Shown here piece by piece: positions 3,531 to 30,295 of a stretch of DNA of 45,408 bases. Source of the stretch: a virus; IMG/VR virus record IMGVR_UViG_3300047320_000353, positions 1-45,408 of that record. One strand, given 5' to 3'. The position numbers and the translations under genes were made by a program. Numbering within the stretch: position 1 is the stretch's first letter; each line of letters starts with the position of its first letter. Below the pieces are notes generated by a model, which was given only the letters and a program-made list of their open reading frames with translations, was not told the origin of the DNA and made no database searches.

Positions 3531-3587
3531 TTCGTCCGCTATAAAGGAGGAATGAAGAATCGAACCTCTATTTTGGCAGAGTGGGAT

Positions 3588-4232
3588 ATGAGCAAAAATT
3601 ATCATCCGCCCGAATATCAAGCACAAAGATTCACGTGCCCACATTGTATGGCCTTTTCTTCTATGGATTGGACGCCATTACAGTCACCAAAATACCCTTT
3701 AAAAATCACCGTAATGGCCATCTGCCAAGGCTGTGGAAATCACAGTCTGTGGGTACCGATTGAAAAACCAACGTCTATCGCAGCACTTATTCAGTTGAAA
3801 TACCGAATAACTTACCCTGCGATATCTCAAGCTCCGACTCCTGAAGAGAATATGCCTGAAGAAATCAAGATCGACTTCGAGGAAGCTAGACAGGTTTTTG
3901 GCTCCTCACCCCGGGCCGCAGCAGCATTGTTAAGGCTTTGCGTGCAAAAGCTGTGTCAGGTGCTTCTGGGCAAAGAAGGCGACATCCATAAACAGATTGG
4001 TGAACTCGTGGACAAGGGGCTGCCTGCCCGTGTGCTGAAGGCGTTTGACACCATACGAATCTTCGGGAATGAGTCTGTACATCCCGGAACCGTCAACCTC
4101 AACGATACTCCCGAAGTCGCTCTAGCACTCTTCAGTCTTTTGAATATGGCCGTTCGACACTGCATCACCGAAGAAAAGGAGCTAGAAGCGATCCGCGCAC
4201 TGACACCGGCAGCCAAGCGTCGAGAAATCTAA
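3588..4232 (+). CDS. Zinc-ribbon / DUF4145 protein, first of a tandem pair
   Basis: 214 residues. The N-terminus holds a zinc ribbon (TCPHC near residue 17, CQGCGNHSLW about 40 residues later). The C-terminal half (DFEEARQVFGSSPRAAAALL...) is a helical DUF4145 domain with conserved 'GNESVHPG'. DUF4145 is found in type I restriction subunits and stand-alone defence-island proteins; the biochemical function is unknown. The start at 3588 (MSKNYHPPEY) aligns with the start of the downstream paralogue (MSKHVAPTFH). An ATG at 3552 would add 12 residues and sits only one base from an AAGGAGG, which is closer than usual. It is transcribed opposite to the surrounding tail genes, so it is accessory cargo. 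Confidence 0.85.
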   Translation: MSKNYHPPEYQAQRFTCPHCMAFSSMDWTPLQSPKYPLKITVMAICQGCGNHSLWVPIEKPTSIAALIQLKYRITYPAISQAPTPEENMPEEIKIDFEEARQVFGSSPRAAAALLRLCVQKLCQVLLGKEGDIHKQIGELVDKGLPARVLKAFDTIRIFGNESVHPGTVNLNDTPEVALALFSLLNMAVRHCITEEKELEAIRALTPAAKRREI

Positions 4233-10472: not shown

Positions 10473-10599
10473 TCTCGCGCTCGCACACTTCGACCCAACG
10501 CCAGTAGTCGTCCAGGGTCAGCCGAGCGATCTCAGACGGTTGCAGCCGCAGCACCAGCAACAGCGCTTCGTCCCAGGATTGCAACAAGGTCGGCGCCAT
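10432..10599 (-). CDS. Tail assembly chaperone E' (second frame)
   Basis: A 55-residue frame overlapping the end of E: MAPTLLQSWDEALLLVLRL..., then PSEIARLTLDDYWRWVEVCE and a basic end. Its 'PSEIxxLTLDDYWRW' pattern and position match the E' partner of P2/Mu-like tail assembly chaperones, normally made as an E-E' fusion by ribosomal frameshifting. Relative to E it is in the +1 (equivalently -2) frame. It is open well upstream of the ATG at 10599, so either a frameshift or independent initiation (GGGAA upstream) is possible. I find only a five-G run (CTG GGG GAT) as a potential slip site. Confidence 0.7.
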   Translation of the reverse strand: MAPTLLQSWDEALLLVLRLQPSEIARLTLDDYWRWVEVCEREINRRNALAAQAYD

Positions 10600-10846
10600 T
10601 GGCCATTTCCCGCAACACCTCGGTGGCTGACCGGGAATCAGCGATGTCGAAATCCCCCAGGTCTTCCAGCGTGATGCCCAGCATCTTGGCCACCAACAGG
10701 TCTTCCATGGCGCCTTCGTCTTTGGTCAGCGCTTGGACGTTGCTGATGTCTTTGCGCTTGAGACGCTTGATGGGCAACACCGAGACCTGCGATCCGGTGG
10801 CGCTGGTGAAGGGGAATTTGAGGGTGAAGCTGAGTGTGTCAGCCAT
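10532..10846 (-). CDS. E: Tail assembly chaperone E
   Basis: 104 residues: 'LKFPFTSATGSQVSVLPIKRLKRKDISNVQALTKDEGAMEDLLVAKMLGITLEDLGDFDIADSRSATEVLREM' is the P2 gpE/phage tail assembly chaperone pattern. It coats the tape measure during tube assembly. First gene of the third late block; the dyad site at 10908-10928 lies 61 bases upstream. Confidence 0.9.
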   Translation of the reverse strand: MADTLSFTLKFPFTSATGSQVSVLPIKRLKRKDISNVQALTKDEGAMEDLLVAKMLGITLEDLGDFDIADSRSATEVLREMANGADLVAILGRSAVAGAAAATV

Positions 10847-10907
10847 CGTTTTGCTCCAGGTTGCTCAGTGGGTGAGACCTGATGATGACGGTGTGAGCGG
10901 AGACTGG

Positions 10908-10928
10908 CTTTTAATCGGATTTAAAGAG
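10908..10928 (-). promoter_or_regulatory. Candidate late promoter site, copy 2 (upstream of E)
   Basis: Plus-strand CTTTTAATCGGATTTAAAG, the second copy of the repeated dyad. It lies between the tail block and cargo region 2. Without it the E-to-V block would be separated from the previous late promoter by about 9 kb of mixed-orientation cargo. Confidence 0.6.
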
Positions 10929-10986
10929 ACGATCCGTGTGCGTTTGAAGGTCAACCAGCACTGAAATCACAAGGAGGAATGGACGT

Positions 10987-11277
10987 ATGAGTGAATCAAA
11001 CAGAGAGAAATTCAACGACCTGATCAGTCAGATCATGGATGTATTGATCGATTCATGTCCCGTTTACAACAGCCTCGATCCGGCGGAATTTGGTATTCAA
11101 GCTGGGGAAATGGCTAACAATGGCATGTACAACCCCACTGATGAAGAAGCGTTTTTTAACGACTGCATCCGGTGGCTCAAAGATGAAGAATTCATCCGAG
11201 GGGACACCAGATTCGTGGTCACCAGCTATGGCTTGGAAACGTTCAACAGCCTGCCTGAGTGCCTGGTAGCCAACTGA
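10987..11277 (+). CDS. Hypothetical protein, winged-helix-like, paralogue of 11558-12010
   Basis: 96 residues. No family recognised with confidence. The pattern 'REKFNDLISQIMDVLIDSCP...FFNDCIRWLKDEEFIRGDTRFVVTSYGLETFNSLPECL' aligns along its length with the gene at 11558 ('IERFNILVGAIFARLYETFP...FFTSTVDWLGEHGYLI...CVLTARTLELLNAMPSNL'). The helix-helix-'W L...GYI'-strand arrangement suggests a winged-helix fold. A strong AAGGAGG is eight bases before the ATG. First gene of cargo region 2, reading away from the late promoter. Confidence 0.75.
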   Translation: MSESNREKFNDLISQIMDVLIDSCPVYNSLDPAEFGIQAGEMANNGMYNPTDEEAFFNDCIRWLKDEEFIRGDTRFVVTSYGLETFNSLPECLVAN

Positions 11278-11284
11278 ACATATG

Positions 11285-11316
11285 GTGGTCGCTCCCGCCG
11301 GTGTGGGAGTGATCAC
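11285..11316 (+). terminator. Strong hairpin between two cargo genes
   Basis: GTGGTCGCTCCC (11285-11296) pairs with GGGAGTGATCAC (11305-11316), with two G-U pairs in the RNA. It lies just after the stop codon at 11277. No U-run follows, so it may attenuate transcription or stabilise the 3' end rather than terminate on its own. Confidence 0.4.
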
Positions 11317-11352
11317 CCGACCCGGTGCTGACGCGCAAAAAGGAGATGTGCA

Positions 11353-11556
11353 ATGGAAGACGAACTGACCATCGACATTGACGGTGAGCAATACACTGCG
11401 ACCTACTCAGTGTTCAACGACACCTTGACGGCGACACTGCCTGACGGAAGCCAGCGTTCTACCGAACTTCGTGGGCTGAACCCCATCAGTGCGACGCGAA
11501 CTCACCTACGGGCTTATGCCCTCAGCGCCTCCCGTCAATCTGAACTGAAGGACTAG
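11353..11556 (+). CDS. Small hypothetical protein
   Basis: 67 residues, acidic N-terminus (MEDELTIDIDGEQYTATYSV) with a predicted beta-sheet layout followed by a helix. A good GGAGATGTGCA ribosome binding site precedes the ATG. Its stop is one base before the ATG of the next gene, so the two are probably translated together. Family not recognised. Confidence 0.65.
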   Translation: MEDELTIDIDGEQYTATYSVFNDTLTATLPDGSQRSTELRGLNPISATRTHLRAYALSASRQSELKD

Positions 11557-11557
11557 C

Positions 11558-12010
11558 ATGTCGGCACCGAACATTGAGCGCTTCAATATTTTAGTCGGCG
11601 CTATTTTCGCCAGGCTATATGAAACGTTTCCCGTCCCCATTGAACTGATAGCGACAAATTTCGCTGACCTTCTGGTGGACGATGAACCGACAGAGAACGG
11701 ATACCATAAGGGCGGGTACGTACGTTTTTTCACCTCAACGGTGGACTGGTTGGGCGAGCATGGATACCTCATCAGAAAGGAACTGGTGACTACCCACATA
11801 ATTCGAGGTTGTGTATTGACTGCGCGGACCTTGGAGCTGCTAAACGCAATGCCTTCAAATCTCGAAAGCAAAGATCCCTCTTTGGGTGAGCAGTTGGTCA
11901 GTGCAACGAAAGAAGGCATGACAGGTAAGGTGAAAGAGCTGGCTTCTGACTTCTTGAGTAAGGCCGTTGTGTTTGGCACCAAAGCGGCGACCGATTGGGT
12001 GAACTCTTGA
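11558..12010 (+). CDS. Hypothetical protein, winged-helix-like with C-terminal helical extension
   Basis: 150 residues. The first 100 align with the 96-residue protein at 10987. The extra C-terminal part (EQLVSATKEGMTGKVKELASDFLSKAVVFGTKAATDW) is an amphipathic helix that could lie on a membrane or mediate oligomerisation. It follows the 67-residue gene with a one-base gap. The trio 10987-12010 looks like one small operon. Function unknown. Confidence 0.75.
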   Translation: MSAPNIERFNILVGAIFARLYETFPVPIELIATNFADLLVDDEPTENGYHKGGYVRFFTSTVDWLGEHGYLIRKELVTTHIIRGCVLTARTLELLNAMPSNLESKDPSLGEQLVSATKEGMTGKVKELASDFLSKAVVFGTKAATDWVNS

Positions 12011-12067
12011 TAGTCGATTTTTTCATCACCTGACTTTCATCCTTCACACATCAATGCCAAAACACCA

Positions 12068-12150
12068 TTGGCGAAAGAACGCGTTCCTTCGTCAATGATG
12101 TTTTACGACTGCTGCGCAGCCGAACGGGGGCAAGCCCCCTCGCCACAGGG
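12068..12150. repeat. 28-bp palindrome plus REP-like hairpins between convergent genes
   Basis: 12068-12095 is an imperfect palindrome centred on GAACGCGTTC. 12111-12150 holds GCTGCGCAGC and GGGGGCAAGCCCCC, matching Pseudomonas REP-type sequence. It lies between the convergent ends of 11558-12010 and 12158-12520, so it may stop transcription from both sides. Chromosomal-type REPs inside a phage suggest this cargo came from host DNA. Confidence 0.6.
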
Positions 12151-12157
12151 GGCGTGA

Positions 12158-12520
12158 CTATTCAGGTGGATCGAGTTGGTCCAGCGCCCGGTTCACTGCC
12201 AGTTCCCCCAGCATGATGACTTGCGCAATGCCCAGCAGCGCGTTGCGACTCGTCCCCTCCAGTTGATCCACCAGATCGGTGGCCATGACATTGGCCGATG
12301 CCAGAGACTCGCACGCGTGCACCAGTAGGGTCTCGGTATTGAGCTCTGGATTGACGATAAACATGGAGCTGGGTTTTCGCGGGGTGGCCATGATGTTGGC
12401 GGCCGAGTTGAAGTAGTGGTCGAGCTCGCACTCGACGGCTTCGTGAAGTTTGTTTGAGTCGAGGCTTTCGTCCGGGGATGCTGAATCAGTGTCCGGCGGA
12501 TTGGGTGTGACCTTGAACAT
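12158..12520 (-). CDS. DUF6124 family protein, copy 1
   Basis: 120 residues from the ATG at 12520 (MFKVTPNPPDTDSASP), with AAAGGA upstream. DUF6124 proteins are small, helical and common in Pseudomonas; their function is unknown. Conserved blocks are 'KLHEAVECELDHYF', 'NTETLLVHACESLASANVMATDLVDQLEG' and 'ALLGIAQVIMLGELAVNRALDQLDP'. The gene is divergent from the structured repeat element at 12556-12835, the same arrangement as at 29620-30295. Confidence 0.85.
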   Translation of the reverse strand: MFKVTPNPPDTDSASPDESLDSNKLHEAVECELDHYFNSAANIMATPRKPSSMFIVNPELNTETLLVHACESLASANVMATDLVDQLEGTSRNALLGIAQVIMLGELAVNRALDQLDPPE

Positions 12521-12555
12521 AATCTTCAATTCCTTTGGTGATGCTGACACCACTT

Positions 12556-12835
12556 CGCGACTAAACGAAGGGGTGGCAGCTGTACGCAGGTTAGTCGACC
12601 GGGGAATTGAAGAAACCGGCGCACCCGAAGGTGCCCTGCGCACAGCCACCATCAAATACAGGTAGGAAACACCTGTCTGACGGCACTTGTGCAACTTCAA
12701 TTACCTCTGGGCGACTAAACCCGACCACAGATGGGCTGTGGTTGGGAAACGATAGAGGCTGGGGGGCAAAGCGCACAAGCCGGCGGATTCTTACGCACCT
12801 GTAGGCAACGACGCAAGGTGTTGTAGCTTTCACGA
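12556..12835 (+). ncRNA. Candidate structured RNA element, copy A (beside DUF6124)
   Basis: About 280 nt, related along its length to 13441-13705 (plus strand) and 29620-29895 (minus strand). It carries the sites CGCGACTAAACG, GGTTAGTCGACC and GGGCGACTAAACCC, the middle one complementary to the others, so long-range pairing is possible. The most telling hairpin is CCACAG-ATGGG-CTGTGG; the other two copies have TCACTG...CAGTGA with the same loop, so both sides of the stem changed together. It ends with a conserved AAGCCGGCGGATTCT...TAGCTTT block and is followed by a strong terminator at 12849-12880. That fits a transcript on the plus strand. A short peptide (KPADS...) in one frame is an alternative. 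Confidence 0.55.
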
Positions 12836-12848
12836 CGTTACTTGGGGA

Positions 12849-12882
12849 CCGCTTAAACATGCGTGTTTAAGCGGTGTTGTCT
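12849..12882 (+). terminator. Intrinsic terminator after RNA element A
   Basis: CCGCTTAAACA (12849-12859) pairs perfectly with TGTTTAAGCGG (12864-12874) around a four-base loop, followed by TGTTGTCTTTT. This is a textbook rho-independent terminator on the plus strand. Confidence 0.75.
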
Positions 12883-13013
12883 TTTCGAGTAAATGAGGCT
12901 CGTGGACGATGAAAGCGTTGAGGAAAACCGAGAAACATCCGACGTATTTTTAGGCTTGGCGGTCAGAAACGAGACCGTTAGCGTAGTGACTCCCAACATC
13001 AAGGAGCTTCATC

Positions 13014-13388
13014 ATGCAAGGGACCACGGACACGCCTGACGACTACACCCCCGAAAGTACCAGCCCGTACATCTCCGCTGACAACAAGACACTTCACCAA
13101 GCTGCCCACCGAGCACTGAACCACTACCTGAAGCCATCGGGCCTGACGACAGCAAAGGGGCGAACACCCATCACCATCTTTGTGGTGGCTCCCGAAGTCG
13201 ATAACGAAACGCTGTTGGCCCACGCCTGTGAGTCGTTGGCGTCAGCGAATTTGATGGCCAGTGATTTTGCCGGGACGCTAGAGGGGGGGCACCGCAACAT
13301 GATGTTGGCGTTGCAGCAGGTGATCATGTTGAGCGAGTTGGCGGTGAACCGTGTGCTGGATAACGTCGGGGCGCAGCAACAGGCGTAG
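13014..13388 (+). CDS. DUF6124 family protein, copy 2 (diverged)
   Basis: 124 residues. The N-terminus differs from the other copies (MQGTTDTPDDYTPEST), but 'KTLHQAAHRALNHYLKP', 'DNETLLAHACESLASANLMASDFAGTLEG' and 'VIMLSELAVNRVLDNVG' are conserved. AAGGAG lies eight bases before the ATG. RNA element B begins about 50 bases downstream on the same strand, unlike copies 1 and 3 where gene and element are divergent. Confidence 0.82.
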   Translation: MQGTTDTPDDYTPESTSPYISADNKTLHQAAHRALNHYLKPSGLTTAKGRTPITIFVVAPEVDNETLLAHACESLASANLMASDFAGTLEGGHRNMMLALQQVIMLSELAVNRVLDNVGAQQQA

Positions 13389-13440
13389 GCCTACAGAAGT
13401 GCCCCGCGCCCAACCATGATGGCATGCTGGCTGACAAAAG

Positions 13441-13705
13441 ATGGTGACGGTACGCCAGTGAACATACCGGCGAGCTGAAACGCCGGCGGCCCAAGGGAGT
13501 CCGCGTACAGCCACCATCTATCCAGGCATGTAATGCCTGTCCCTTCAAAAGAGGACACGTACAGCTCATTGTGCCCCGGGCGGTCAAGCCCGATCACTGC
13601 TGGGCAGTGACGGGGTACAAGTTACCGGTTGGGGGCCAAGAGGAAAAGCCGGCGGATTCTGTGTTGGTTGTAGGTAAAGGCGTTGTGCTGCGTAGCTTTG
13701 CAACA
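13441..13705 (+). ncRNA. Candidate structured RNA element, copy B
   Basis: The most diverged of the three related elements. It keeps CAGCCACCATC, GGGCGGTCAAGCCCG, the hairpin TCACTG-CTGGG-CAGTGA, GTTACCGG and AAGCCGGCGGATTCTG...TAGCTTTG. It fills most of the 498-base gap between DUF6124 copy 2 and the next gene. An open frame of 93 codons from 13571 crosses it but shows no family and only short similarity with the frames in the other copies. Confidence 0.5.
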
Positions 13706-13887
13706 TCACGGACGTCTATCCCTGACTACGGCTTACCAAAATTGGAAGAAAGCGTCACGGAATCAGCTCCCCTAAGCTGGAAAATATGTGCAATATGCCA
13801 CTTCTTGGCTATGCTTCAGGGCTTGTGTGGTGACTCTAAAAAATCTGCGTGAGGTTACATCCTCACACCTGCAGCGGAGATTGCGTC

Positions 13888-14163
13888 GTGGACACTGAAA
13901 AGTACAACCGAACTGTTTCGTTGCTCTGCCCCACCTGTGGAGGTAGTTTGTTTGAGGGGGCGGATGACCCATCAGCCGAGATGGTGACCTGCGCTACATG
14001 TGATAGGTCGCTCACTCGCGACGAGCTTCTACAAGAGAACAGCGAGAACATTGGAGAGCATTTGGAAGAGATTAAAAAGTCGGTAAAAAAGGATCTAACC
14101 AAGCAGTTGCAGGACACTTTGAAGAGCGCCTTTAAGGGCAGCAAGAATATTAAGTTCAAATGA
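13888..14163 (+). CDS. Small zinc-ribbon protein with helical tail
   Basis: 91 residues from GTG at 13888, preceded by GCGGAGA. One zinc ribbon is visible (LLCPTCGGSLF...VTCATCDRSL), then a charged helix (ENIGEHLEEIKKSVKKDLTKQLQD) and a lysine-rich end. An upstream GTG at 13849 would add 13 residues. Its last bases overlap the ATG of the next gene (ATGA), so the two form a coupled pair. The base composition is more AT-rich than the phage structural genes, a sign of transfer. Confidence 0.75.
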   Translation: MDTEKYNRTVSLLCPTCGGSLFEGADDPSAEMVTCATCDRSLTRDELLQENSENIGEHLEEIKKSVKKDLTKQLQDTLKSAFKGSKNIKFK

Positions 14164-14636
14164 TAGCTATTACAGTCGACTCGGGTGATGTTATTGCTGG
14201 TTTTGCGCTGGTTTTTTCCGTGTACGCCACAGTGAAAACGATTCAGTTTAATAATCGTCAAAAAAAGCTTATTGAAGTACAAGAAAAACTAAATAATCTT
14301 TTGCTTGAAAAGGAAACAGCTGACGCAACGGACGAAAAAAAGGCCAACCTTGGTGCATCCTTCATAAAGTTAGGTAGTAACAAATATCGCTTAAAAATTT
14401 GGAATAAAGGTAAGGCTGTAGCGCGTGACGTAAATATCGACTTTCCAGAAGGGAACGATGTGCTTTTGGAGAGCGAGATTAGCGCTAAATTTCCACTGCA
14501 ATCGCTGGACACGCATCAGTCTGTCGAGCTAATTGCAGCGGTACATATGGGCACCAAACCTAAGCATCTTATCAGATTGGTATGGTCGGACGATCACTGC
14601 GAGAGAAATGAAAAACTTATATATGCCGTTCTGTAA
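14160..14636 (+). CDS. Membrane-anchored hypothetical protein
   Basis: 158 residues. The N-terminus is one hydrophobic span (about residues 8-27, VIAGFALVFSVYATVKTIQF). A coiled coil follows (NNRQKKLIEVQEKLNNLLLEKE), then a beta-rich domain with 'KYRLKIWNKGKAVARDVNIDFPEG', which looks like an immunoglobulin-like fold. AT-rich. Coupled to the zinc-ribbon gene before it by a four-base overlap, and followed by a terminator. Function unknown; the layout suggests a membrane sensor paired with a cytosolic zinc protein. Confidence 0.75.
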   Translation: MIAITVDSGDVIAGFALVFSVYATVKTIQFNNRQKKLIEVQEKLNNLLLEKETADATDEKKANLGASFIKLGSNKYRLKIWNKGKAVARDVNIDFPEGNDVLLESEISAKFPLQSLDTHQSVELIAAVHMGTKPKHLIRLVWSDDHCERNEKLIYAVL

Positions 14637-14693
14637 ACCTATTGAGTGAGCTTCGACTACTTCAAGGGTGGACAATGGGAAGTATTAGCATAA

Positions 14694-14724
14694 ACAAAAA
14701 AGCACCCTGATTAGGGTGCTTTCT
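14694..14724 (+). terminator. Intrinsic terminator after the zinc-ribbon/membrane pair
   Basis: A-rich tract, then AGCACCCTGATTAGGGTGCT (14701-14720) and TTCTC. The stem AGCACCC/GGGTGCT is flanked by A's on the left and T's on the right, so it may work in both directions. The 450 bases that follow, up to 15174, contain no gene I can support. Confidence 0.75.
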
Positions 14725-15174
14725 CATAATTGGCGGGGGAGTCTGCTCTTACCCATCTAAATAGCAGCGAACTTTCTAGCCTCTCTCAGTGATCTGCCGT
14801 CTTAACCCCCAGAGACTTGACGCCATTGCACTTGCATTTCAGGCTTACTTTAATTTTCATTTTTTACCCCTTTTATGGAAGGATCCATGGGTTGAGAACT
14901 CGATCTTCAAAACGGAGAAGATGAGGATGAAAACTTGCAGACCACCTGAGAGGTCTCCGAACGTCCCACCTGCAAGTAACAGAGTTGGTAAACCGTCGAA
15001 TGGGCCTATGATACCAAAGAACGAAAAAAAACTTCAACGAGACCGTTCTATCGCCGCTGACCAAGCTGGACTCGAAATCCTATATTGAACGCGAAGGTTA
15101 GCGATCAACAAGTTCACCGCGTTGGCTACGTAGAAGTTTTTCTGGCCACCCCAAGAATGGCCAGCCGACACCGC

Positions 15175-16479
15175 TCAGACGGTGATGGAAACTTCGAGTC
15201 TGTAACCGCTTTCAGATTCTTCTGAAACCTGCCAGACACATTGCCTGGACATGCGCAATCGGCCAAGTAGCAGGTGATGTGGATGCTTAGGACACCCAGT
15301 TGCGGCACAAGCGATCATTACTGCTCCCGCCAATTGCTCAATGACATCGTTGTGAATGCTGCGATTGCTACCATGGTGCGGCAAATTGAATACTTCTACT
15401 TCCTTTAGCAAGTGCTTGAACCGTAGAAGCCATGGCGTTCTCGTGTCATCCGTTTCCAAGTTCGCATCACCAGTACAGAGCCACGCTCCTCCTTTACTTT
15501 CAGGTAACCCACTTGATGACACGATCATCGAGCGTTGAGAACGAAAGGTCCATTCGTAAAACTGATCGGTTCTAAATATCTGCTTGTATCCTAAAACGCG
15601 TGGATGAGGCCCAGCGTAAAGGCTTAAAGACGGTTTATTGTTGTCTTTAGACAAAATGGAATAGCAGGCTTTTAAAGCCTTGCGACTATCTTCGTTGCGC
15701 AGTAGCTCCAGTAACGTCTTTTTGAATGCTTCTGACGCAATTGCCCGACTTGCGAACGTGCGAGGGAACAAGCCGCCCACAGCCCTGCGAAACGAGGCGA
15801 TGTCCTCACCTGGGAATGGATGCACATAGGGGATCAGTAACCACGATGGTGAGCCACCTCCGAAATTGATTGAAATCGAGGTGTGTTCGCCGAGCATTCG
15901 AACCACGGCCTCACCTGAGCGAAGTGTCTTAGCTTCACTCACAGTTTGAGAGCGAATCGTGTATGGACGGTTTGGCTCAGCATCCTCACCAACCGGCACA
16001 ATTTTGTCTTCAATTGAGCGTTCAGAATCAGGGTTGAAAGGAATTGCCTCGGCCGTATTGTCTCCTCGCTGAACATGAAAGATTTGCTTGATCCCGCGAT
16101 CTGCGAACCAAGTCGAAGGATCTGACAAGAATGACTGGACCGACATTCTGAGCCCCGCAGCTCCAGCGGCTTCGCATGCGATCATGGTCATGTGCAATGC
16201 GTCCAAGCAGGGAAGAATCACCGTATCGATCTGCATCTTCGAGGCCAAGGCATCGATGCCATTTATATGGTCCGCGTCCATATGAGAAATAAACAGCACG
16301 TCTATTTTGCCCGGCGAACAAAAAGACAATCCTTGCTCGAAGTGCTCCCGGTTGATTGAGCCGCAATCAAACGCGTAGGTGAACTCGCGATTGTGTGCAT
16401 CACTAATTTGACCAATCAGGAAACCACCTTGACCGACCGGTAGCTGGCGGATAGTCGCGTGCAGCATTGCTTTGCTCAA
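15175..16479 (-). CDS. Metallo-beta-lactamase-fold hydrolase (ComEC-like domain)
   Basis: 434 residues from TTG at 16479, which has AAGGAG seven bases upstream; an ATG at 16467 is the alternative. The metal-binding motif is SHMDADH (H66, D68, D70, H71), followed later by 'LCTGDANLE' and 'VFNLPHHGSNRS', the order seen in the MBL domain of ComEC/Rec2 and stand-alone relatives that act on nucleotides or nucleic acids. No signal peptide or membrane span is seen, so it is probably cytosolic. It is divergent from an AbiC-type gene, so a role in defence is plausible but inferred. The substrate cannot be read from the sequence. Confidence 0.85.
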   Translation of the reverse strand: MSKAMLHATIRQLPVGQGGFLIGQISDAHNREFTYAFDCGSINREHFEQGLSFCSPGKIDVLFISHMDADHINGIDALASKMQIDTVILPCLDALHMTMIACEAAGAAGLRMSVQSFLSDPSTWFADRGIKQIFHVQRGDNTAEAIPFNPDSERSIEDKIVPVGEDAEPNRPYTIRSQTVSEAKTLRSGEAVVRMLGEHTSISINFGGGSPSWLLIPYVHPFPGEDIASFRRAVGGLFPRTFASRAIASEAFKKTLLELLRNEDSRKALKACYSILSKDNNKPSLSLYAGPHPRVLGYKQIFRTDQFYEWTFRSQRSMIVSSSGLPESKGGAWLCTGDANLETDDTRTPWLLRFKHLLKEVEVFNLPHHGSNRSIHNDVIEQLAGAVMIACAATGCPKHPHHLLLGRLRMSRQCVWQVSEESESGYRLEVSITV

Positions 16480-16845
16480 GAATCTGCTCCTTGTGTTTTC
16501 GATTCTTTCGAGCCCCCTGTATTTGAATGACATGGGTGGCGAACGGCACATTGCCATGACTGGCTAGGCAAGTAAATTCAACTTCAATTGGTAACCTCAT
16601 CTGTGTGGACATGCATGCCACACAATGTGTGTGATACCTAGCAGCACCGCCCCCGCGGAGCCAGGTCTGACATGGGGAATTCCACTCTTCCTCTGTCGTT
16701 TGGATGAAATATGAGTAGAAGAATCGAGACGTATCGACCTAAGGATAATTCCTCCGTGCAACCTCCCCAGCGAAGCGGTTCGCCGCTATGCTGTAAGCAC
16801 TGCACAACCTCCATCCTCGTACCGAGCTCGCTCAATAGGTCAAGA

Positions 16846-17589
16846 ATGCATCCTCTTTCAGAAGAAGCAGAATCACTGCAAGGAATTCTGATTTCACAGG
16901 CCACTGGAGGAAACGAAGACGACACTGCTTACCTGAAGCTGCGTCAAGTGGTTATGGCCGATTCAACACTCGTCACAATGGTTCCGCGCTTTGTGCGAAC
17001 GTGCAGGAGTCTCAGTCAGTTTTGGCAGTTTATAAAAGGTAAGTATGCTACCTATGCCGAACGTAGGACTTATATTTGGGACGAGTTTCGCCCATTACTG
17101 GAGTATGTCGAAAAAAGTGGAGCATCACCGGCAGATAATGCCGTTACAGGCGCTATTGATAGGTTTGATTCAGAGCATGTGAGGGCAGCTTGGACCAAGT
17201 CACTAGAGCGCCGGGCCACTGACCCCGAAGGTGCTATTACGATGGCAAGGACTCTTTTGGAATCAGTCTGCAAACACATCCTGGAAGCGGCTGGGCTGGA
17301 ATACATTGACAGCCCCGACCTAAATAAACTCTATCGACAAACTGCAGAGTTACTAAACCTTGCTCCCTCTCAGCATACCGAACAGGTATTCAAGCAAATA
17401 TTAGGTGGATGCACAGCCGTTGTTGAAGGCTTAGGTGCGCTTCGGAATCGCTTAAGTGATTCGCATGGCACGGGTAAGGCTGGAGTTAAACCAGCGCCAC
17501 GCCATGCGGAGCTTGCAGTGAATCTTGCGGGCTCTCTCTCTTTGTATCTGCTTGGTACATGGGAAGTCCAGTCGCCGAATAGGGTATGA
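16846..17589 (+). CDS. Abortive infection family protein (AbiC-type C-terminal domain)
   Basis: 247 residues from ATG at 16846. The frame opens at 16711, but the first 45 residues look non-coding. The C-terminal half is a clear Abi_C domain: 'FDSEHVRAAWTKSLERRATDPEGAITMARTLLESVCKHIL', 'APSQHTEQVFKQILGGCTAVVEGLGALRNRLSDSHG' and 'KPAPRHAELAVNLAGSLSLYLL'. This domain was named from lactococcal AbiC and occurs in many defence loci; its biochemistry is not settled. Divergent from the MBL-fold gene, with about 370 bases between the starts. Confidence 0.85.
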   Translation: MHPLSEEAESLQGILISQATGGNEDDTAYLKLRQVVMADSTLVTMVPRFVRTCRSLSQFWQFIKGKYATYAERRTYIWDEFRPLLEYVEKSGASPADNAVTGAIDRFDSEHVRAAWTKSLERRATDPEGAITMARTLLESVCKHILEAAGLEYIDSPDLNKLYRQTAELLNLAPSQHTEQVFKQILGGCTAVVEGLGALRNRLSDSHGTGKAGVKPAPRHAELAVNLAGSLSLYLLGTWEVQSPNRV

Positions 17590-17663
17590 ATATAGCTTGT
17601 CTGTGTTGGTCAGCTGGCAAAAATGTTGATAGTGAAACCCACAAAAAATAACTTTGGATAATC

Positions 17664-18536
17664 ATGAATAAGCCTGGTACAGCCCTCGATACATCCTTGT
17701 TGCCACAATACATAATGTCGGCTGCTTTTATGGAACGTTTTCTAGTTGCTGCGCACGTGGACGGCGCTCCAATTGGACGCAGCCCTAATACCGAAGCAAT
17801 GAAGTTTGTAGATGCCAGTGAACTAGAAATTGATCTTCTGAAATATTTCACCGAAAACAAGGAAGCCTTTCGCGACGAATTTACTAAAGAGCTAGAGAAT
17901 AAGCTGCCAGAGGGTGTCTTTAAAATATTTTGCGAGGTCCTCGCCGAAGAGTGGTTTGACGGCAAGAGTAAACGTCAAGATGGCCGGTGCCGACGACTCA
18001 AGCGATCAATACATGATTATTTGTGTACGTTAACTAGCCGTGATGCTCAATTTGTTCAGACTGATGATCTGCCTGCAGATGTAGAACCATTGGTTGCGGC
18101 TGAAGATATCGCGGCAATTTTGACCGTCAACGATCAAATGATTTATCGCCATGTTGAAGAATGGAAGCAGAATCATCCTAACAGTGACAGTATCAGTGAT
18201 AGCGATGTTTTCCTTCGAAGGGGGCTGGCGATTGTAGGCGAACTCGACACCAGTGAGCTCTATCGTGAGCGCGACTTTATAAACTCATACTCAATCGCTT
18301 TCAGTGCTCCAGAAAAATTCTCTCAAATAAGAAAGCTAACACCAGTACTCGTAAATGGGGAAATTACACTATTCGCGAATCGAGTGCTTTTCTTCTCACC
18401 ATTCATTCCGGGCATGGACGCAAGTCAGTTGGAATTTGGAGTTATACCGTCCGATAGGCCTCTCCCCATCCATTATCAAGGCTCTCATGGAGGTATCCTC
18501 GAGTACATCCTTGATCCAGCGCCATTCCACAAATGA
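17664..18536 (+). CDS. Hypothetical protein of unknown family
   Basis: 290 residues; GGAT lies a few bases before the ATG. No motif or domain recognised. The N-terminal third is helical and charged (SELEIDLLKYFTENKEAFRDEFTKELENKLPEG). A small basic patch follows (KSKRQDGRCRRLKRSIHDYL). The C-terminal part is beta-rich and ends in 'PIHYQGSHGGILEYILDPAP'. It lies 74 bases after the AbiC-type gene on the same strand, so co-transcription is possible. AT-rich compared with the phage backbone. Confidence 0.75.
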   Translation: MNKPGTALDTSLLPQYIMSAAFMERFLVAAHVDGAPIGRSPNTEAMKFVDASELEIDLLKYFTENKEAFRDEFTKELENKLPEGVFKIFCEVLAEEWFDGKSKRQDGRCRRLKRSIHDYLCTLTSRDAQFVQTDDLPADVEPLVAAEDIAAILTVNDQMIYRHVEEWKQNHPNSDSISDSDVFLRRGLAIVGELDTSELYRERDFINSYSIAFSAPEKFSQIRKLTPVLVNGEITLFANRVLFFSPFIPGMDASQLEFGVIPSDRPLPIHYQGSHGGILEYILDPAPFHK

Positions 18537-18739
18537 ATTAGAACTTGATGTTCAACTTCGCCACCCTGCCTACGCAGGGATGGCATATTATATAAACGAA
18601 GTTGTAAGCCTGCTTAGAGCGTCGGCAGTACTAAATGCTGGCTATGCGAGAACCGTTTTCGGCAACAGCAGGCAAGCAAGTCATGCCGGCACTGTAACCT
18701 CCTTGTAATACTCATCAGTCAGGCTTTCATGCTCTTTAA

Positions 18740-19564
18740 TCAAGCCCCATAATGCCACCTTTGCTTCAAGGACGCTGTCTTCCACATCATTATTTTCCAG
18801 TCTGGCGGCAAGCCTCTGCACGGCGTCAGCGTAAAGTAGTACTGCGTTAGTAGCCAAGTAATACGCAAACGATGTTTTTCGGCTTCAATGCTTTTGTAAA
18901 TTTCGAGCTTGAACTCTGGCACCGTGTGCTCAAGGAGCATTTGATTGTAAATATCTTCCGAAAAAGAATGTACTGAATTGCAGGATGGCGCATAGAGGAT
19001 GTGGTATAGATTCTCGAGCCCCACAGCTTTAAACCGAGCGCGTGCGTCAGACCACCCCTTGACCTTAGGGTCTCTGAAGAGTGGGAGAAGGTCTTTAACA
19101 AACTTCAGGTTATCGAAAAAAGCTCTTGCTCGCTGCTCGGAGCCTTCGTCTTTAACAAGTACGGCGAAATCAAGCCATTTTTGTCCTCTATCTCTGGAAG
19201 TGGTCAAATAGCTTTTTAGAAGGGATTTTGCCCGGCTCGTATCATCCTCCTCGTTGATATACATGAGGTTTATAGTGTTTTCGAGTGCGACTCTGGACAG
19301 CGCCTCAACAGATGAATACAGGCCATTCGACAGAGAAAGAAGAAGGCTATTGTTGAGGTCGGCTACGATGTGCAGCAAGGTTTCGGTTTCGACCTTTAGA
19401 ATGAAAGGCAGAGGGTTGTCGTGTCCTACCTGTAAGTCGCGAGCCCCTTTCGTCGCTTTCTCTAAGCAGGAATTAAGCGTAGGAAGGTGATTTTTGTGGT
19501 CAAAGTGTCGTGATGAAAAGCGTTGTACGGATTTGATAAACTCTTCCGAATTGTCCATGGTCAT
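18740..19564 (-). CDS. DUF5677-like protein, probably frameshifted near its 3' end
   Basis: 274 residues as read. The helical body ('LLHIVADLNNSLLLSLSNGLYSSVEALSRVALENTINLMYI' and 'APSCNSVHSFSEDIYNQMLLEH') resembles DUF5677/HEPN-like all-helical proteins. The last 30 residues (TPCRGLPPDWKIMMWKTASLKQRW) are atypical. A shift of one base near 18845 gives a natural helical ending (VLLYADAVQRLAARLENND, then EAKVALWGLIKEHESLTDEY) with a stop at 18681-18683. A one-base deletion is therefore likely. GGGGGA lies before the ATG. It is convergent with the 290-residue gene. Confidence 0.75.
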   Translation of the reverse strand: MTMDNSEEFIKSVQRFSSRHFDHKNHLPTLNSCLEKATKGARDLQVGHDNPLPFILKVETETLLHIVADLNNSLLLSLSNGLYSSVEALSRVALENTINLMYINEEDDTSRAKSLLKSYLTTSRDRGQKWLDFAVLVKDEGSEQRARAFFDNLKFVKDLLPLFRDPKVKGWSDARARFKAVGLENLYHILYAPSCNSVHSFSEDIYNQMLLEHTVPEFKLEIYKSIEAEKHRLRITWLLTQYYFTLTPCRGLPPDWKIMMWKTASLKQRWHYGA

Positions 19565-19754
19565 CTGCGGTAATTCCCCCTATTCGTACGATCTGGTCTG
19601 TCCTAATCGTTCCCGGTACACACCATATTGGTGGCTATTCGCCATCTTTTCAACTGCGAACAACCATTTACGATTTGATTAGATACGGTTAGATCGTGCT
19701 CGGAAGTCCGTCATTCGCTAAGGTTGCTTCACAATGGCATTTTTTTGAGTGCCG

Positions 19755-20279
19755 TTAAGCAATACCAAGATTCTTGTTGTACTTGGCCAACTGATCCTGC
19801 CCGCCCACACGAAAAATATTCGCCAAATAATCCAGCAACACCACCTCATCCCCATTCAGCACCTGCCGCACATAGGTCGCGGAAAACGGCGTCTCATACT
19901 TCGTCGGGTCCCGCGGTTTGTGGTTGCCCAACTGGTACTCCTTGCCCGTGATGGTCATGGTCGTCACCAACGGAATCTCATCCACCAACCCGCCGTTATT
20001 GAACACCTGCACATTAGACCGGCACTGCAACTGCACACTCTTGAACGGTGTCACCAGCTTTTTGGCCGCCTGCACGTACAAGCTGTTCCACGTAATTTTT
20101 CCTTCGAGTTTGTCGATGCCATCAGGTAGCTCGATCAGGCCGACCATGCCCAGGCCCTGGAAGTCGCTGGTGACGGTTTTCAGGGTGCCCAAATCAATCT
20201 CTTCACACTGGCCAAAGAAGCTGCTGCCATCCAGGTACAGGTTGGCATTGGTGATGCGGTGTGCGCTAAAGCCTGCCAT
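19755..20279 (-). CDS. FII: Major tail tube protein
   Basis: 174 residues, the usual size for the P2 FII family: 'RITNANLYLDGSSFFGQCEEIDLGTLKTVTSDFQGLGMVGLIELPDGIDKLEGKITWNSLY' and 'LGNHKPRDPTKYETPFSATYVRQVLNGDEVVLLDYLANIF'. It forms the inner tube of the contractile tail. Last gene of the second late block; the cargo begins directly after its stop. Confidence 0.95.
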   Translation of the reverse strand: MAGFSAHRITNANLYLDGSSFFGQCEEIDLGTLKTVTSDFQGLGMVGLIELPDGIDKLEGKITWNSLYVQAAKKLVTPFKSVQLQCRSNVQVFNNGGLVDEIPLVTTMTITGKEYQLGNHKPRDPTKYETPFSATYVRQVLNGDEVVLLDYLANIFRVGGQDQLAKYNKNLGIA

Positions 20280-25729: not shown

Positions 25730-27889
25730 ATGGAAGTCGGCAGTTTACTTATGGAAACCAATGATCACCTTGCACGCCAAGACCGGGCCATCGATAGAGC
25801 TGAAGCCGATGCGTTGGATCGTGGCCCGTTTATCTCGAGTCTTATCAAATCGCTCGTCCATACCGAACAAAGATCTGACGGAACGATCTCTCGCCGTGCA
25901 ACAGGATTTGTCGTAGGCCTGACCGGTGAATGGGGTCTTGGTAAGTCGAGCGTCCTTAATTTGTTGCACGAAAAACTGCAGCAAGTGGACGGTGTAGTGG
26001 TGGCGACTTTGAACCCATGGCTTTTCAAGGGGCGCGACGAGCTGGTCGAGGCTTACTTCAACAGCCTACGTGAAGCGCTTGGGAGCAGCACTAGTGAAAA
26101 AACGCGAGAAGTCCGAATTCAACTCGAACGGTATAAAGCGTCCATTGAGCTCGCAGGAACCACAGTCGCTACTGTTATTGATGCTTTGGGCGCTGGTGGT
26201 GCCGCTACTGCTTTTTGGAAAAAATGGCTCGTCAAGTGGCTAAGCGCGCTTATCAAGCCAAAGGATCTGTCGGCGAATCAGGAAAGAAAACTGCTTGAAG
26301 CGAAGCTCGCCAATGCAAGCGTGCCGGTCGTAGTGTTGATCGACGAACTAGACCGAGTTGAAGATGACGAGGTCCGAGCGGTGGCGCAACTTGTGAAGGC
26401 AGTAGGTGACATTAAGGGTATTTCTTATCTGGTCGCTTACGATCCCGATCGTGTGACACAAGCGCTTGGACGAGGTAACAAACCAAAGGAGCGACAGCGA
26501 ACAGGAGAAAGTTATCTGGAAAAAATTATTCAGTTTCCGATCTCACTACGTCCGTTGTTCGAAGAAGATGTCAAGGCGCTGCTAGCTCACTCACTACGTG
26601 TCAATGGCGTTGATCTTCCAGACCCCAACGAACCATACCAACAAAGCATTATTAAACAACTGGTCCAAGTTGTGCGTACCCCTCGTGAAATCAAGCGACT
26701 AACGGGGGCGTTCGCTGTGCTGGAGGAAATTACTCGAGGCGAGATATGTCCCTATGATGTCCTAGGTTACAGCTGGATTGTCACGAAAGCTCCTGCGTTA
26801 CGTGATCTGATCGTTAATAAGCTTGAAGCCGTTATTGATGATCCTGGCGATCGTGAACTCATGAGGAGAATGTCAGCCCGCCAAAACAACAAAGATAAAG
26901 GGGCATCTGTTACCGACATACTGGGTCCTAATGCAGATGTTCATCGTGACTTTCTCCAATTGCTTTTCCCTCGGTTTAGCGTCGATAGCAAAATGGTCGA
27001 CGGGAAAAGGATCTCTAAACGTCGGAACCTCGTACGCTTGCTCTACCTCGGCAATCCACCAGGCATGATGCCTAGGGCTGAGATCGAACAGATCTGGAGC
27101 ATCGGTAATGTCGACCAAATGGAGAGGATCATTTTACATTTGCAGCAAAGCGAACAGTTCTTCCCGCTGATTGATCGACTAGGCGACTTACTTCCAGAAC
27201 TTCCCCAGAGCGGCGATGGGGTCTTCTGGGTTGCCTTATCCCGCACACTCGTTCGGCAACACGACTGGATCCACAAGGAAGAGTCTCTTGGCAATGTGGT
27301 AGATGACGCAGGGACAATTATCTGGCGGCATGCGAGTTCAAGTGATCGTGGTGCGGCGCGTCTGAAAGCAACCGTTGAAGCTTTGATAGAGGATGGTGAC
27401 CTTCTCTTAGTGCCATGGCTTCTGCGAAAACACCTGTTTGCCCACAATCGTTCATCGCATTCGAGTCCGAACGATGGCGAGGTGATTTTCGGTAAGAACG
27501 ACACGATGCAGTTGTTAGAACGAGAGTTACCCCGCTATCGCCGTGCTGTGATCGATGGCACTGCACTACGCCGACTTCCGGACACGGAGGCAATATATTG
27601 CATCGCCAACAGCAAACGATGGGATGAGGAGCTCAGGAGCAGTCTGACGTTACAACTGGACAGCATGGAAGCAGTCGCGACGTTCGCAGCTCTAACAGTT
27701 CGCCCAGGCTATATCAGTGATCGAGACAGCATGAATGTGATGATCGATGCCGACGTTGTTTTAGAAGTAATTGATAGGATGGTGGCAGAAGTAGGACTTC
27801 CGGAAGATCAATGGCTCGCCACCTCGATCAAACGCCTTCAAGCCACGCTTCGCGGTCAAGACCCTTCTTATGTTGGTCATGGCGATTGA
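25730..27889 (+). CDS. KAP-family P-loop NTPase
   Basis: 719 residues. Walker A is GEWGLGKS (66-73) and Walker B VVLIDELDR (201-209). The 'NPWLFKGRDELVEAYFNSL' segment after Walker A and 'SYLVAYDPDRVTQAL' after Walker B are typical KAP features, as is a hydrophobic insertion between the two motifs (about 140-175). KAP proteins include PifA, which makes F-carrying cells exclude phage T7, and membrane-associated ATPases in defence islands. ATG at 25730 is used; ATG at 25751 is an alternative, and neither has a strong ribosome binding site. Likely an exclusion protein, by family and by cargo position. The downstream membrane protein may be its partner. Confidence 0.88.
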   Translation: MEVGSLLMETNDHLARQDRAIDRAEADALDRGPFISSLIKSLVHTEQRSDGTISRRATGFVVGLTGEWGLGKSSVLNLLHEKLQQVDGVVVATLNPWLFKGRDELVEAYFNSLREALGSSTSEKTREVRIQLERYKASIELAGTTVATVIDALGAGGAATAFWKKWLVKWLSALIKPKDLSANQERKLLEAKLANASVPVVVLIDELDRVEDDEVRAVAQLVKAVGDIKGISYLVAYDPDRVTQALGRGNKPKERQRTGESYLEKIIQFPISLRPLFEEDVKALLAHSLRVNGVDLPDPNEPYQQSIIKQLVQVVRTPREIKRLTGAFAVLEEITRGEICPYDVLGYSWIVTKAPALRDLIVNKLEAVIDDPGDRELMRRMSARQNNKDKGASVTDILGPNADVHRDFLQLLFPRFSVDSKMVDGKRISKRRNLVRLLYLGNPPGMMPRAEIEQIWSIGNVDQMERIILHLQQSEQFFPLIDRLGDLLPELPQSGDGVFWVALSRTLVRQHDWIHKEESLGNVVDDAGTIIWRHASSSDRGAARLKATVEALIEDGDLLLVPWLLRKHLFAHNRSSHSSPNDGEVIFGKNDTMQLLERELPRYRRAVIDGTALRRLPDTEAIYCIANSKRWDEELRSSLTLQLDSMEAVATFAALTVRPGYISDRDSMNVMIDADVVLEVIDRMVAEVGLPEDQWLATSIKRLQATLRGQDPSYVGHGD

Positions 27890-28233
27890 GATTATGGGAT
27901 AGCCCCCCTAGCTTACACCGAACCGCCAGACCCCGATCCGAGCTGGATCAGGCTTCTACGCCATGTTTTTTTTCAACGTTCGTTGCATTACAGCTGAGCT
28001 GGAGTCGTCAAATAAACCCATATTCTTGCAACACCTCACCTTTCCACGAGACAAGACAGCGAAAGACAGATAGCATTACGCCATTATCTGCCGAGTCTCC
28101 GCGCCCGCAACCCTAGTAACGGCGTGCGACTTTTTAAATACTCTTATGAATCTCTTTGATGAGCATTTAATTAAGCGGCAACTAATTAATTTTTTCACTG
28201 AATAGACGCTTAAAATAAAGGCCCTAAAGAAAT

Positions 28234-29352
28234 ATGGACAGAAAAGAAGATGTAGAGCGCGTCACAGGTGAAGCAGCGGAGAACGGATTAGACACAAGCG
28301 AAGCAAAGGGCCGCGATAAAAATGGTGCTCCGATCCCGCCCCCCAAAGAGTCTGGCTTTCCTGATTTTTTTGCACTCTTGATCATATATATAGTCATGCT
28401 GTTTGGAGTTTATGGGGTATTATCATTTATCTCCCCAGAGATTCTTGTTAAGTTATGGGGTAATCTCGTTGGTACGTTCGGCATATTGACTTTGGGTTTT
28501 ACGGTGCTTTTTGCATTTGCCAAAGGTCTTGAAAGCCTTTCCAGTTCATCATTCGTTGAAATCGACCGAAAGGCTAGGGGCGATTCAAAATCTATTGGAA
28601 TACAACTTGGTTCTTTTGCGCTTAACACATTTATAAAAAACTTTGGTATGGGCAGGTTCTTTCCGTTCGACATAGATTTTGGCGACCCGAAAACTTACGA
28701 CCCCGACAAAACTAATGCGCGAATACAAGACCGTGCCGGAGTGGGAGACATTGTAGAGCGTCAGAAGGTTTTAGGCACCGCTTTCGAGATGTATATCTGC
28801 AGTGTTGTTGAGAGTTTAGATAAGCATATTTCACTTACGGAGGAAAAAGGTTCTAATTTGCTCGATAGAGGGTTGTTGTTTTTATTTGGCGGAATTTTGT
28901 ATTACATAATAGCCATCGCCCTATGGCAAATTTGGGCCAAGTATGGCGAGCCCAAAGATAGTGTAATGTATATTGGGATGTTCGCTAGCTCAGTCGTTTT
29001 TCTCGTGTGTGAGTTTCTAGCGGCTTGGTTCCTTAAACAGTACAGGCATTATGTAGATGCATCTTTGGCATGCTTGCGGGTCAAGTCGGTATATGATCGA
29101 TACATGCTATCTTATTATGCTGTTAAAGAGATGGGATCTGAGGGGGATGGGGTATCGGAAAAGCTCAGTCGTGTGCTTGAGGCGATCAAGGAAGACGTGA
29201 TGTGGCCTGGGCATAAGGATAATTTGAGCAATGACTTCAACTATATGCTTGAGACAATGAGCTCGGTTCATACTTCATTGGATAAGCTTAAAGGACTATT
29301 CGATTCCAAAACTAAGCCAGCAGGCGCTGATAGCAAACCTGACGATAAATAG
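28234..29352 (+). CDS. Four-helix membrane protein
   Basis: 372 residues. Membrane spans are seen at about 45-65, 75-97, 213-234 and 244-267, with cytosolic charged regions between and after. The N-terminal 40 residues are hydrophilic (MDRKEDVERVTGEAAENG) and the C-terminus ends KTKPAGADSKPDDK. The gene is AT-rich relative to the phage backbone. An AT-rich 344-base gap before it (28,130-28,230, rich in TTAATTAA-like sequence) probably contains its promoter. No family recognised. Adjacency to the KAP ATPase suggests a membrane effector or a second exclusion protein; this is inference. Confidence 0.8.
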   Translation: MDRKEDVERVTGEAAENGLDTSEAKGRDKNGAPIPPPKESGFPDFFALLIIYIVMLFGVYGVLSFISPEILVKLWGNLVGTFGILTLGFTVLFAFAKGLESLSSSSFVEIDRKARGDSKSIGIQLGSFALNTFIKNFGMGRFFPFDIDFGDPKTYDPDKTNARIQDRAGVGDIVERQKVLGTAFEMYICSVVESLDKHISLTEEKGSNLLDRGLLFLFGGILYYIIAIALWQIWAKYGEPKDSVMYIGMFASSVVFLVCEFLAAWFLKQYRHYVDASLACLRVKSVYDRYMLSYYAVKEMGSEGDGVSEKLSRVLEAIKEDVMWPGHKDNLSNDFNYMLETMSSVHTSLDKLKGLFDSKTKPAGADSKPDDK

Positions 29353-29524
29353 AAGGAATTCGTCGACCATAGTTGTCGCGCTAGCTACGAAACCGGGAGG
29401 AATAGGCCTTTCGGTTGTGGGGGCTAGAGCGGGTGGGCTGGAGTTGGGCGAAAGCTGACTCATTCAGGAGCCACGTTGCCCATTGCATTTGCGAGGGTCA
29501 ACCTTAAAGAAGCGTCATATTCGT

Positions 29525-29540
29525 CCTCGATTAATCGAGG
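29525..29540. terminator. Perfect 16-bp palindrome between cargo gene and RNA element C
   Basis: CCTCGATTAATCGAGG, followed by TTTGACC on the plus strand. It could end transcription of the membrane-protein gene (stop at 29352) or of element C on the other strand, or be a protein-binding site. No long U-run on either side. Confidence 0.35.
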
Positions 29541-29619
29541 TTTGACCCCGCGTAGAACACTCTTGCCCGCTCAATCAACATCACCAAGAGTTCTTGTTTA
29601 AAACCGCTCACGTTTACTT

Positions 29620-29895
29620 CACGAAAGCTACAAGACCTTGCGCCGTTGCCTACGGTTACGCCAGAATCCGCCGGCTTGTGCGCCTTGGGGGGGGCCGGTA
29701 ACTTTATTCGCGTCACTGCCCATCAGTGATCGGGTTTAGTCGCCCGTCGATGTCAAGACGCACAATGTCTCTATCAGCCAGGTATCCCATGCCTGCACTT
29801 GATGGCGGTTGTGTGCAGGGCGCTTCGGCGCGCCGATTTCTTGGCTCATCGGTCGACTAACCTGTGCACAGCTGCCTCCCTTTCGTTTAGTCGCG
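29620..29895 (-). ncRNA. Candidate structured RNA element, copy C (beside DUF6124)
   Basis: On the minus strand this matches element A almost end to end: CGCGACTAAACGAA, GGTTAGTCGACCG, GGGCGACTAAACCCG, the hairpin TCACTG-ATGGG-CAGTGA, GCGCACAAGCCGGCGGATTC and TTGTAGCTTT. It is divergent from DUF6124 copy 3, the same arrangement as element A and copy 1. Compared with A, the hairpin stem has changed on both sides while the loop is unchanged, which argues for RNA structure. A 61-codon frame over part of it (KPADS...) is the protein alternative. Confidence 0.55.
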
Positions 29896-29932
29896 AGCTG
29901 GTTGCAGCCTCACTCATATGAGGTTAGAGCCA

Positions 29933-30295
29933 ATGTTCAAGGTAACGCCAAATCCGCCGGACACCGATCCGACATCCCCGTACGAAAGCGTCGATTCAAA
30001 AAAACTCCACGAAGCTGCCGAGCGTGCTCTCGACTTTCACTTCCCCTCGACCGCCGACATCAAAGCCACACCACGCACACCCAGTACGCTCTTTACCGTG
30101 GACCCTGAGGTGAATACCGAAACCCTGATGGTTTACCTGGTGGAGACGTTGGCTTCGGTCGATGTGATGGTCCATCAGTTGGTGGATCATCTGGAGGGTG
30201 GCGACCGCAATGCTCTGCTGGGCATTTCCAACAGCATCATGCTGGCGGAGATCACGGCAAACCGGGTTCTGGATCAGATTGATCCGCCTGAGTAG
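29933..30295 (+). CDS. DUF6124 family protein, copy 3
   Basis: 120 residues from ATG at 29933 (MFKVTPNPPDTDPTSP), nearly identical at the N-terminus to copy 1. It keeps 'KKLHEAAERALDFHF', 'VNTETLMVYLVETLASVDVMVHQLVDHLEG' and 'ALLGISNSIMLAEITANRVLDQIDPPE'. An upstream ATG at 29918 would add five residues. The pairing with element C repeats the pairing of copy 1 with element A. Function unknown. Confidence 0.85.
   Translation: MFKVTPNPPDTDPTSPYESVDSKKLHEAAERALDFHFPSTADIKATPRTPSTLFTVDPEVNTETLMVYLVETLASVDVMVHQLVDHLEGGDRNALLGISNSIMLAEITANRVLDQIDPPE

Follow-up and report, generated by a model that had tools for sequence, protein, structure and literature searches.

A cargo hotspot of Mu-like phages probably holding exchangeable defence cassettes, with a soluble ComEC-type MBL gene and an Abi_C gene followed by an uncharacterized family

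Abi_C/AbiJ HEPN proteins are predicted RNases of abortive infection (PMC3710099), and the C-terminal MBL domain of ComEC is a Mn-dependent nuclease for which the motif II Asp residues and the motif III Asn have been described (PMC8579336). MBL domains are also part of trypsin–MBL defence modules (HamM, AVAST type 1, Lamassu and DRT), and the gating of the active site by insertions in HamM-type defence nucleases is relieved through cleavage by a partner protease (PMC12799240). Defence genes are further known to collect in hotspots of P2-like prophages (PMC9519451). Here we compare with these systems a three-gene segment of a 45.4 kb virus record (IMGVR_UViG_3300047320_000353; the whole stretch of 45,408 nucleotides is referred to as the window), which consists of an MBL gene, a divergent Abi_C-domain gene (AbiC) and a gene of an undescribed family (P3). 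The original prediction was that the three form one defence system. Our analyses favour instead, with a probability of roughly 0.78, a mosaic of defence cassettes that can be exchanged independently of one another at a cargo hotspot of Mu-like phages, with MBL as the first cassette and AbiC–P3 as the second. The trio is not a new system; its members belong to known kinds, apart from the uncharacterized P3 family.

The element is a Mu-like phage, given the presence of a MuA-type transposase gene (41771–43549) with a product approximately 60% identical to that of Pseudomonas aeruginosa transposable phages; its tail is of the sheath/tube type. A P2-like phage, the first idea for the element, was ruled out by the transposase match. 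The record names no host, and the phage relatives, together with an AbiC relative on a Pseudomonas plasmid (85% identical), point to Pseudomonas. The trio lies between the genes for the tail tube and the tail-assembly chaperone (Table 1); its earlier placement in prophage cargo is well supported by homology. A scan for the tail tube protein gave 72 loci, in 65 of which the stretch separating the tube from the next match detected for a chaperone or tape measure could be measured; this interval was 4.9–8.5 kb in 18 of these 65 Mu-like loci and 0.15–1.7 kb in 47. A DUF6124 gene was found in every one of the 18 long-interval loci, in contrast to none of the 47 short-interval loci. Pfam scans of ten cargo proteins encoded at other loci, eight of which were also compared with PADLOC, identified a Dsr1-like SIR2 protein (E = 2e-77), CHAT, Mrr and PLD proteins, an HNH protein related to CBASS effectors, PDC-S31 (DUF2971) and DUF3800; three proteins had no match. 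Known or likely defence genes swap at the tube/chaperone site of Pseudomonas-type Mu-like phages, a hotspot for which a small literature search found no description. As in the P2-like hotspots (PMC9519451), conserved phage genes enclose a short variable region with interchangeable defence genes; the differences are the phage type (Mu-like), the location of the region, which is bordered by the tail tube and tail-assembly chaperone genes, and the DUF6124 gene at one side.

Table 1. Features of the cargo interval and its borders (window positions).
Feature	Position	Strand	Remark
Tail-assembly chaperone, TAC_7	10532–10846		Chaperone-side border of cargo
Cargo interval (hotspot)	10847–19754	.	Between tail-assembly chaperone and tail tube
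DUF6124 gene	12158–12700	-	All relatives with cargo that were fully measured have such a gene towards the chaperone side
Second DUF6124 gene	13014–13388	+	
MBL, soluble ComEC-type MBL protein	ORF 15175–16557 (460 aa); probable CDS 15175–16467 (430 aa)	-	Assigned by homology
MBL/AbiC divergent intergenic region	16468–16845	.	
AbiC, Abi_C/AbiJ-type HEPN protein	16846–17589 (247 aa); listed ORF 16711–17589	+	Assigned by homology
P3, undescribed family	17664–18536 (290 aa)	+	74 bp after AbiC
DUF5677 protein	18740–19564	-	Common to window and L004 (there beside AbiC–P3); absent from L002
Tail tube	19755–20279		Tube-side border of cargo

Several other features of the cargo were observed. Loci L048–L119 carry, in the same interval, proteins without a Pfam or PADLOC match (for example, 572 aa in L048, 524 aa in L050 and 554 aa in L064). 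The window has a second cargo site (25730–30295) between the head protease and minor head genes. This site encodes a PifA-related KAP NTPase (PADLOC, 6e-46), DUF6124 for a third time and a protein of 372 aa that could be assigned to no family. In both sites, the regions around DUF6124 (12158–12838 and 29616–30295) are inverted repeats approximately 17 kb apart, with five segments that are 73–86% complementary, and are possibly recombination points for cargo exchange. A DUF4145 gene (3552–4232), which adjoins a DNA-binding protein gene and lies on the opposite strand among baseplate genes, possibly marks a third cargo spot; DUF4145 is counted as a HEPN family (PMC3710099).

A gene was present where an AbiC-type gene had been predicted, although Abi_C domain (abortive infection C-terminus) is the proper label, with AbiJ as the best PADLOC match (3.6e-21, C-terminal half). 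Lactococcal AbiC is a different protein. The Abi_C domain was found far above the Pfam cut-off (PF14355; E = 7e-21, 74.6 bits versus 24), and the protein contains the HEPN-type motif R202-N203...D207-x-H209-G210 (A6 numbering), in which R202, N203, D207 and H209 are invariant in seven homologues. This domain and the invariant RN...D.HG motif place AbiC with the AbiJ-type HEPN proteins (PMC3710099); some of its relatives also adjoin RM genes, a position that the same study reports for solo AbiJ proteins. Unlike AbiJ, the N-terminal half of AbiC matches only the phage orthologue group phrog_23253 (E = 2e-77 for the protein), and in this phage group AbiC is followed by P3, which was not found described as a partner in the literature searched. 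The start was set at the ATG at 16846 because MHPLSEEAE also opens the proteins of relatives and because loci that have different genes upstream begin to share DNA homology at this point (at 16835 in L004, 16845 in L005 and 16846 in plasmid L024). Promoter-like matches in the MBL/AbiC intergenic region were not above the shuffled background, and a promoter/terminator argument for an operon was dropped given matches near that background.

The divergent MBL-fold gene was recovered as predicted, with both its SHMDADH and PHHGS motifs. Its start is uncertain: the in-frame ATG at 16467 fits the homologues best, yet Met is missing at this position in the relatives from L002 and L007; the DNA homology of L033 stops at 16470, near this probable start. 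The ligands (D34, H62-D64-D66-H67, N277, D334 and H365 in 430-aa numbering) include all ComEC-type features, that is, motif II HxDxDH, the motif III Asn, a bridging Asp and the motif V His. These metal motifs are retained in 11 homologues (four phages, Rhodoferax and six plasmids) down to approximately 25% identity, with D34, H62, D66, H67, N277, D334 and H365 kept throughout and D64 replaced by His in two distant plasmid homologues; the relatives in L002, L007 and L033 are 67–71% identical, and that in L018 is 48% identical. Matches to general MBL models were weak, and those to the PADLOC models RTasMBL (DRT), LmuA and PDC-M48B and to the ComEC C terminus were better. A ComEC domain (9ic4) ranked first in the PDB by sequence and, tentatively, by fold (E = 1.2e-3 and TM 0.22 in the fold search, with a model of mean pLDDT 43 that is interpretable only in its N-terminal half), and it aligns at the N-terminal motif with almost no offset. 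Together with the HEPN motif of AbiC, this full ligand set gives good support by homology to the predicted presence of a nucleic-acid-cleaving enzyme. The ligand pattern, including the motif II Asp and the motif III Asn, is that of the ComEC MBL domain (PMC8579336); the protein differs from ComEC in being stand-alone and soluble, without the membrane channel. TIGR00361 (ComEC) matches through its C-terminal part only (28 bits versus a cut-off of 190), and a fused membrane competence domain is absent.

A second difference from ComEC is the long insertion that separates motif II from motif III (430 aa in total versus 266 for 9ic4). Following the HamM precedent (PMC12799240), MBL might be a proenzyme nuclease that this central insertion keeps inactive until a protease encoded elsewhere activates it, a reading to which the insertion, the ComEC-type MBL ligands and the best PADLOC models (DRT, LmuA and PDC-M48B) all lend some weight. 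We nevertheless regard it as unlikely, given that no protease family or domain was found in the scanned cargo genes of the window and L033 or in the divergent neighbour of MBL in L018. Moreover, the insertion looks folded rather than like a disordered gate, because W209, P213 and Y269 are kept in distant homologues. MBL resembles the trypsin–MBL modules (PMC12799240) in being ComEC-like, in having an insertion and in its defence context, and differs from them in the lack of an adjacent or fused protease among the scanned genes and in its scores far under the curated cut-offs for Avs1a (12.7 versus 420 bits) and the 6A-MBL equivalog (16.5 versus 220).

Whether the genes form one unit was judged from loci that share them. 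Pairwise dN/dS of MBL, AbiC and P3 against their homologues was 0.02–0.16 at dS near 1 (the exception, 0.26, being the almost identical P3 pair of L001 and L002); all three are under purifying selection and are therefore maintained genes. They occur together, in the same order and orientation, in the window and L002, whereas the contig of L007 ends with MBL and AbiC and L001 has P3 behind a partial AbiC in which the contig ends. L004 carries AbiC, P3 and the DUF5677 gene without MBL, and its DNA homology with the window sets in beside the AbiC ATG; L033 has MBL at the same cargo site without AbiC or P3, with homology limited to 15191–16470; the breakpoints in the hotspot loci fall at gene boundaries. 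In L057, the MBL slot is taken by a PLD-domain protein among the same neighbours as in L033 (92%, 78% and 73% identical). A conserved two-gene pair (272 and 144 aa; L033:6527–7776 and L057) without a Pfam match adjoins MBL in one locus and the PLD-domain gene in the other. The DUF5677 gene is another interchangeable cargo gene (Table 1).

Obligate co-occurrence of the three genes is contradicted by L004 and L033, and the claim of one defence system is not supported, as this hotspot contains MBL without AbiC–P3 as well as AbiC–P3 without MBL. A single three-gene, two-nuclease system, in which AbiC–P3 would sense infection and the divergent MBL would be a second effector, would require the loci lacking a part to be degraded or substituted; L004 and L033 are, however, intact alternatives with gene-boundary breakpoints rather than decaying remnants, the MBL slot itself was exchanged in L057, and relatives of AbiC and of MBL occur elsewhere without each other. 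We consider such a system very improbable, even though the trio (window and L002) and the MBL–AbiC arrangement (L007) were retained at dS of approximately 0.7–1.3 while the genes on both sides were replaced, and MBL co-occurs with AbiC in the hotspot at a hypergeometric P of about 0.05 (from few and related, non-independent loci). The sample from this phage group is small (four MBL loci and five AbiC loci, some on truncated contigs). Given the shared retention at dS near 1, facultative cooperation of the three genes, as in a loosely associated unit, is conceivable; distant homologues without the partners are likewise compatible with a lineage-specific partnership.

Outside this group, AbiC relatives (approximately 47–85% identity) occur in many contexts in which tblastn detected neither MBL nor P3. 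They adjoin type III RM genes in L005 and L024 (from translations and from the annotated record, respectively) and, by inspection of translations rather than profile search, a NACHT/STAND-like NTPase in L006 and restriction-endonuclease-like and AIPR-like genes in L008; other neighbours are TA genes, a relaxase and dNTPase, or integrases (L041 and L043). MBL relatives without AbiC or P3 are carried by Rhizobium, Zymomonas and other plasmids and by Rhodoferax (L018), where the divergent neighbour (L018:5532–7562) is an AAA_21 ATPase fused to a methyltransferase-like domain. The neighbourhood survey thus found largely independent occurrence (repeatedly for MBL and AbiC, once for P3); linkage was seen for AbiC–P3 alone, and within these phages alone.

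The third protein was correctly described from the sequence as a 290-residue product, 74 bases after AbiC, of no recognisable family: searches of Pfam, PHROG, NCBIfam, PADLOC and PDB gave no convincing match (Bro-N, EreC and similar candidates were rejected at E above 0.05), and the structure model was uninterpretable (mean pLDDT 41). Many polar residues are invariant among the five homologues that were aligned. Within the phage group, P3 lies directly behind AbiC in four of four P3 loci (three lineages, with almost identical P3 in L001 and L002), on the same strand and across a short gap without a terminator match. A 47% identical relative is the third gene after XRE and ImmA/IrrE (Peptidase_M78) genes in L023:116–2278, without AbiC and possibly in a different regulatory context for the family; an FRG-domain gene lies near this row. 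P3 was not found in phages or plasmids by tblastn or in genome contigs, the latter scanned by two short patterns only, which is weak evidence. In genomes of the class of Rhodoferax, P3 was absent and MBL rare, results that say little; none of these genomes carried DUF6124, so that evidently no Pseudomonas genome was among those sampled. The P3 family is conserved, has no known relative and, in the two contexts found, follows either an Abi_C gene or XRE–ImmA/IrrE.

AbiC may be a complete single-gene abortive-infection system, with P3 a separate cargo gene fixed behind it by chance in one phage lineage; this is possible, although not the reading we favour, as the 85% identical AbiC on plasmid pBYT1-1 and the relatives of approximately 50% identity in many loci all lack P3, and as the L023 relative of P3 lacks AbiC. 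Against chance stand the constant linkage in three lineages across a short terminator-less gap and the purifying selection on P3. A tighter coupling, in which AbiC–P3 would be a two-gene defence unit with P3 (the founder of a new family that is found elsewhere with XRE–ImmA/IrrE) controlling or sensing for the HEPN RNase and MBL as an optional third layer, seems doubtful to us.

Under the favoured mosaic of cassettes, the first would be the single-gene, soluble ComEC-type MBL, for which the ligands make Mn-dependent DNase activity on incoming or cellular DNA the most likely function. In the second, motif and family suggest that AbiC is most likely an infection-triggered HEPN RNase that leads to growth stop or cell death, and linkage suggests that P3 is most likely an accessory of AbiC (a sensor, regulator or inhibitor) or a co-carried effector. 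The phage would gain from a lysogen shielded from competitors. Lacking the usual protease partner among the genes scanned, this predicted soluble ComEC-type nuclease offers a simple test of whether such enzymes defend alone, and the hotspot marked by the DUF6124 gene is a source of many unclassified candidate defence genes.
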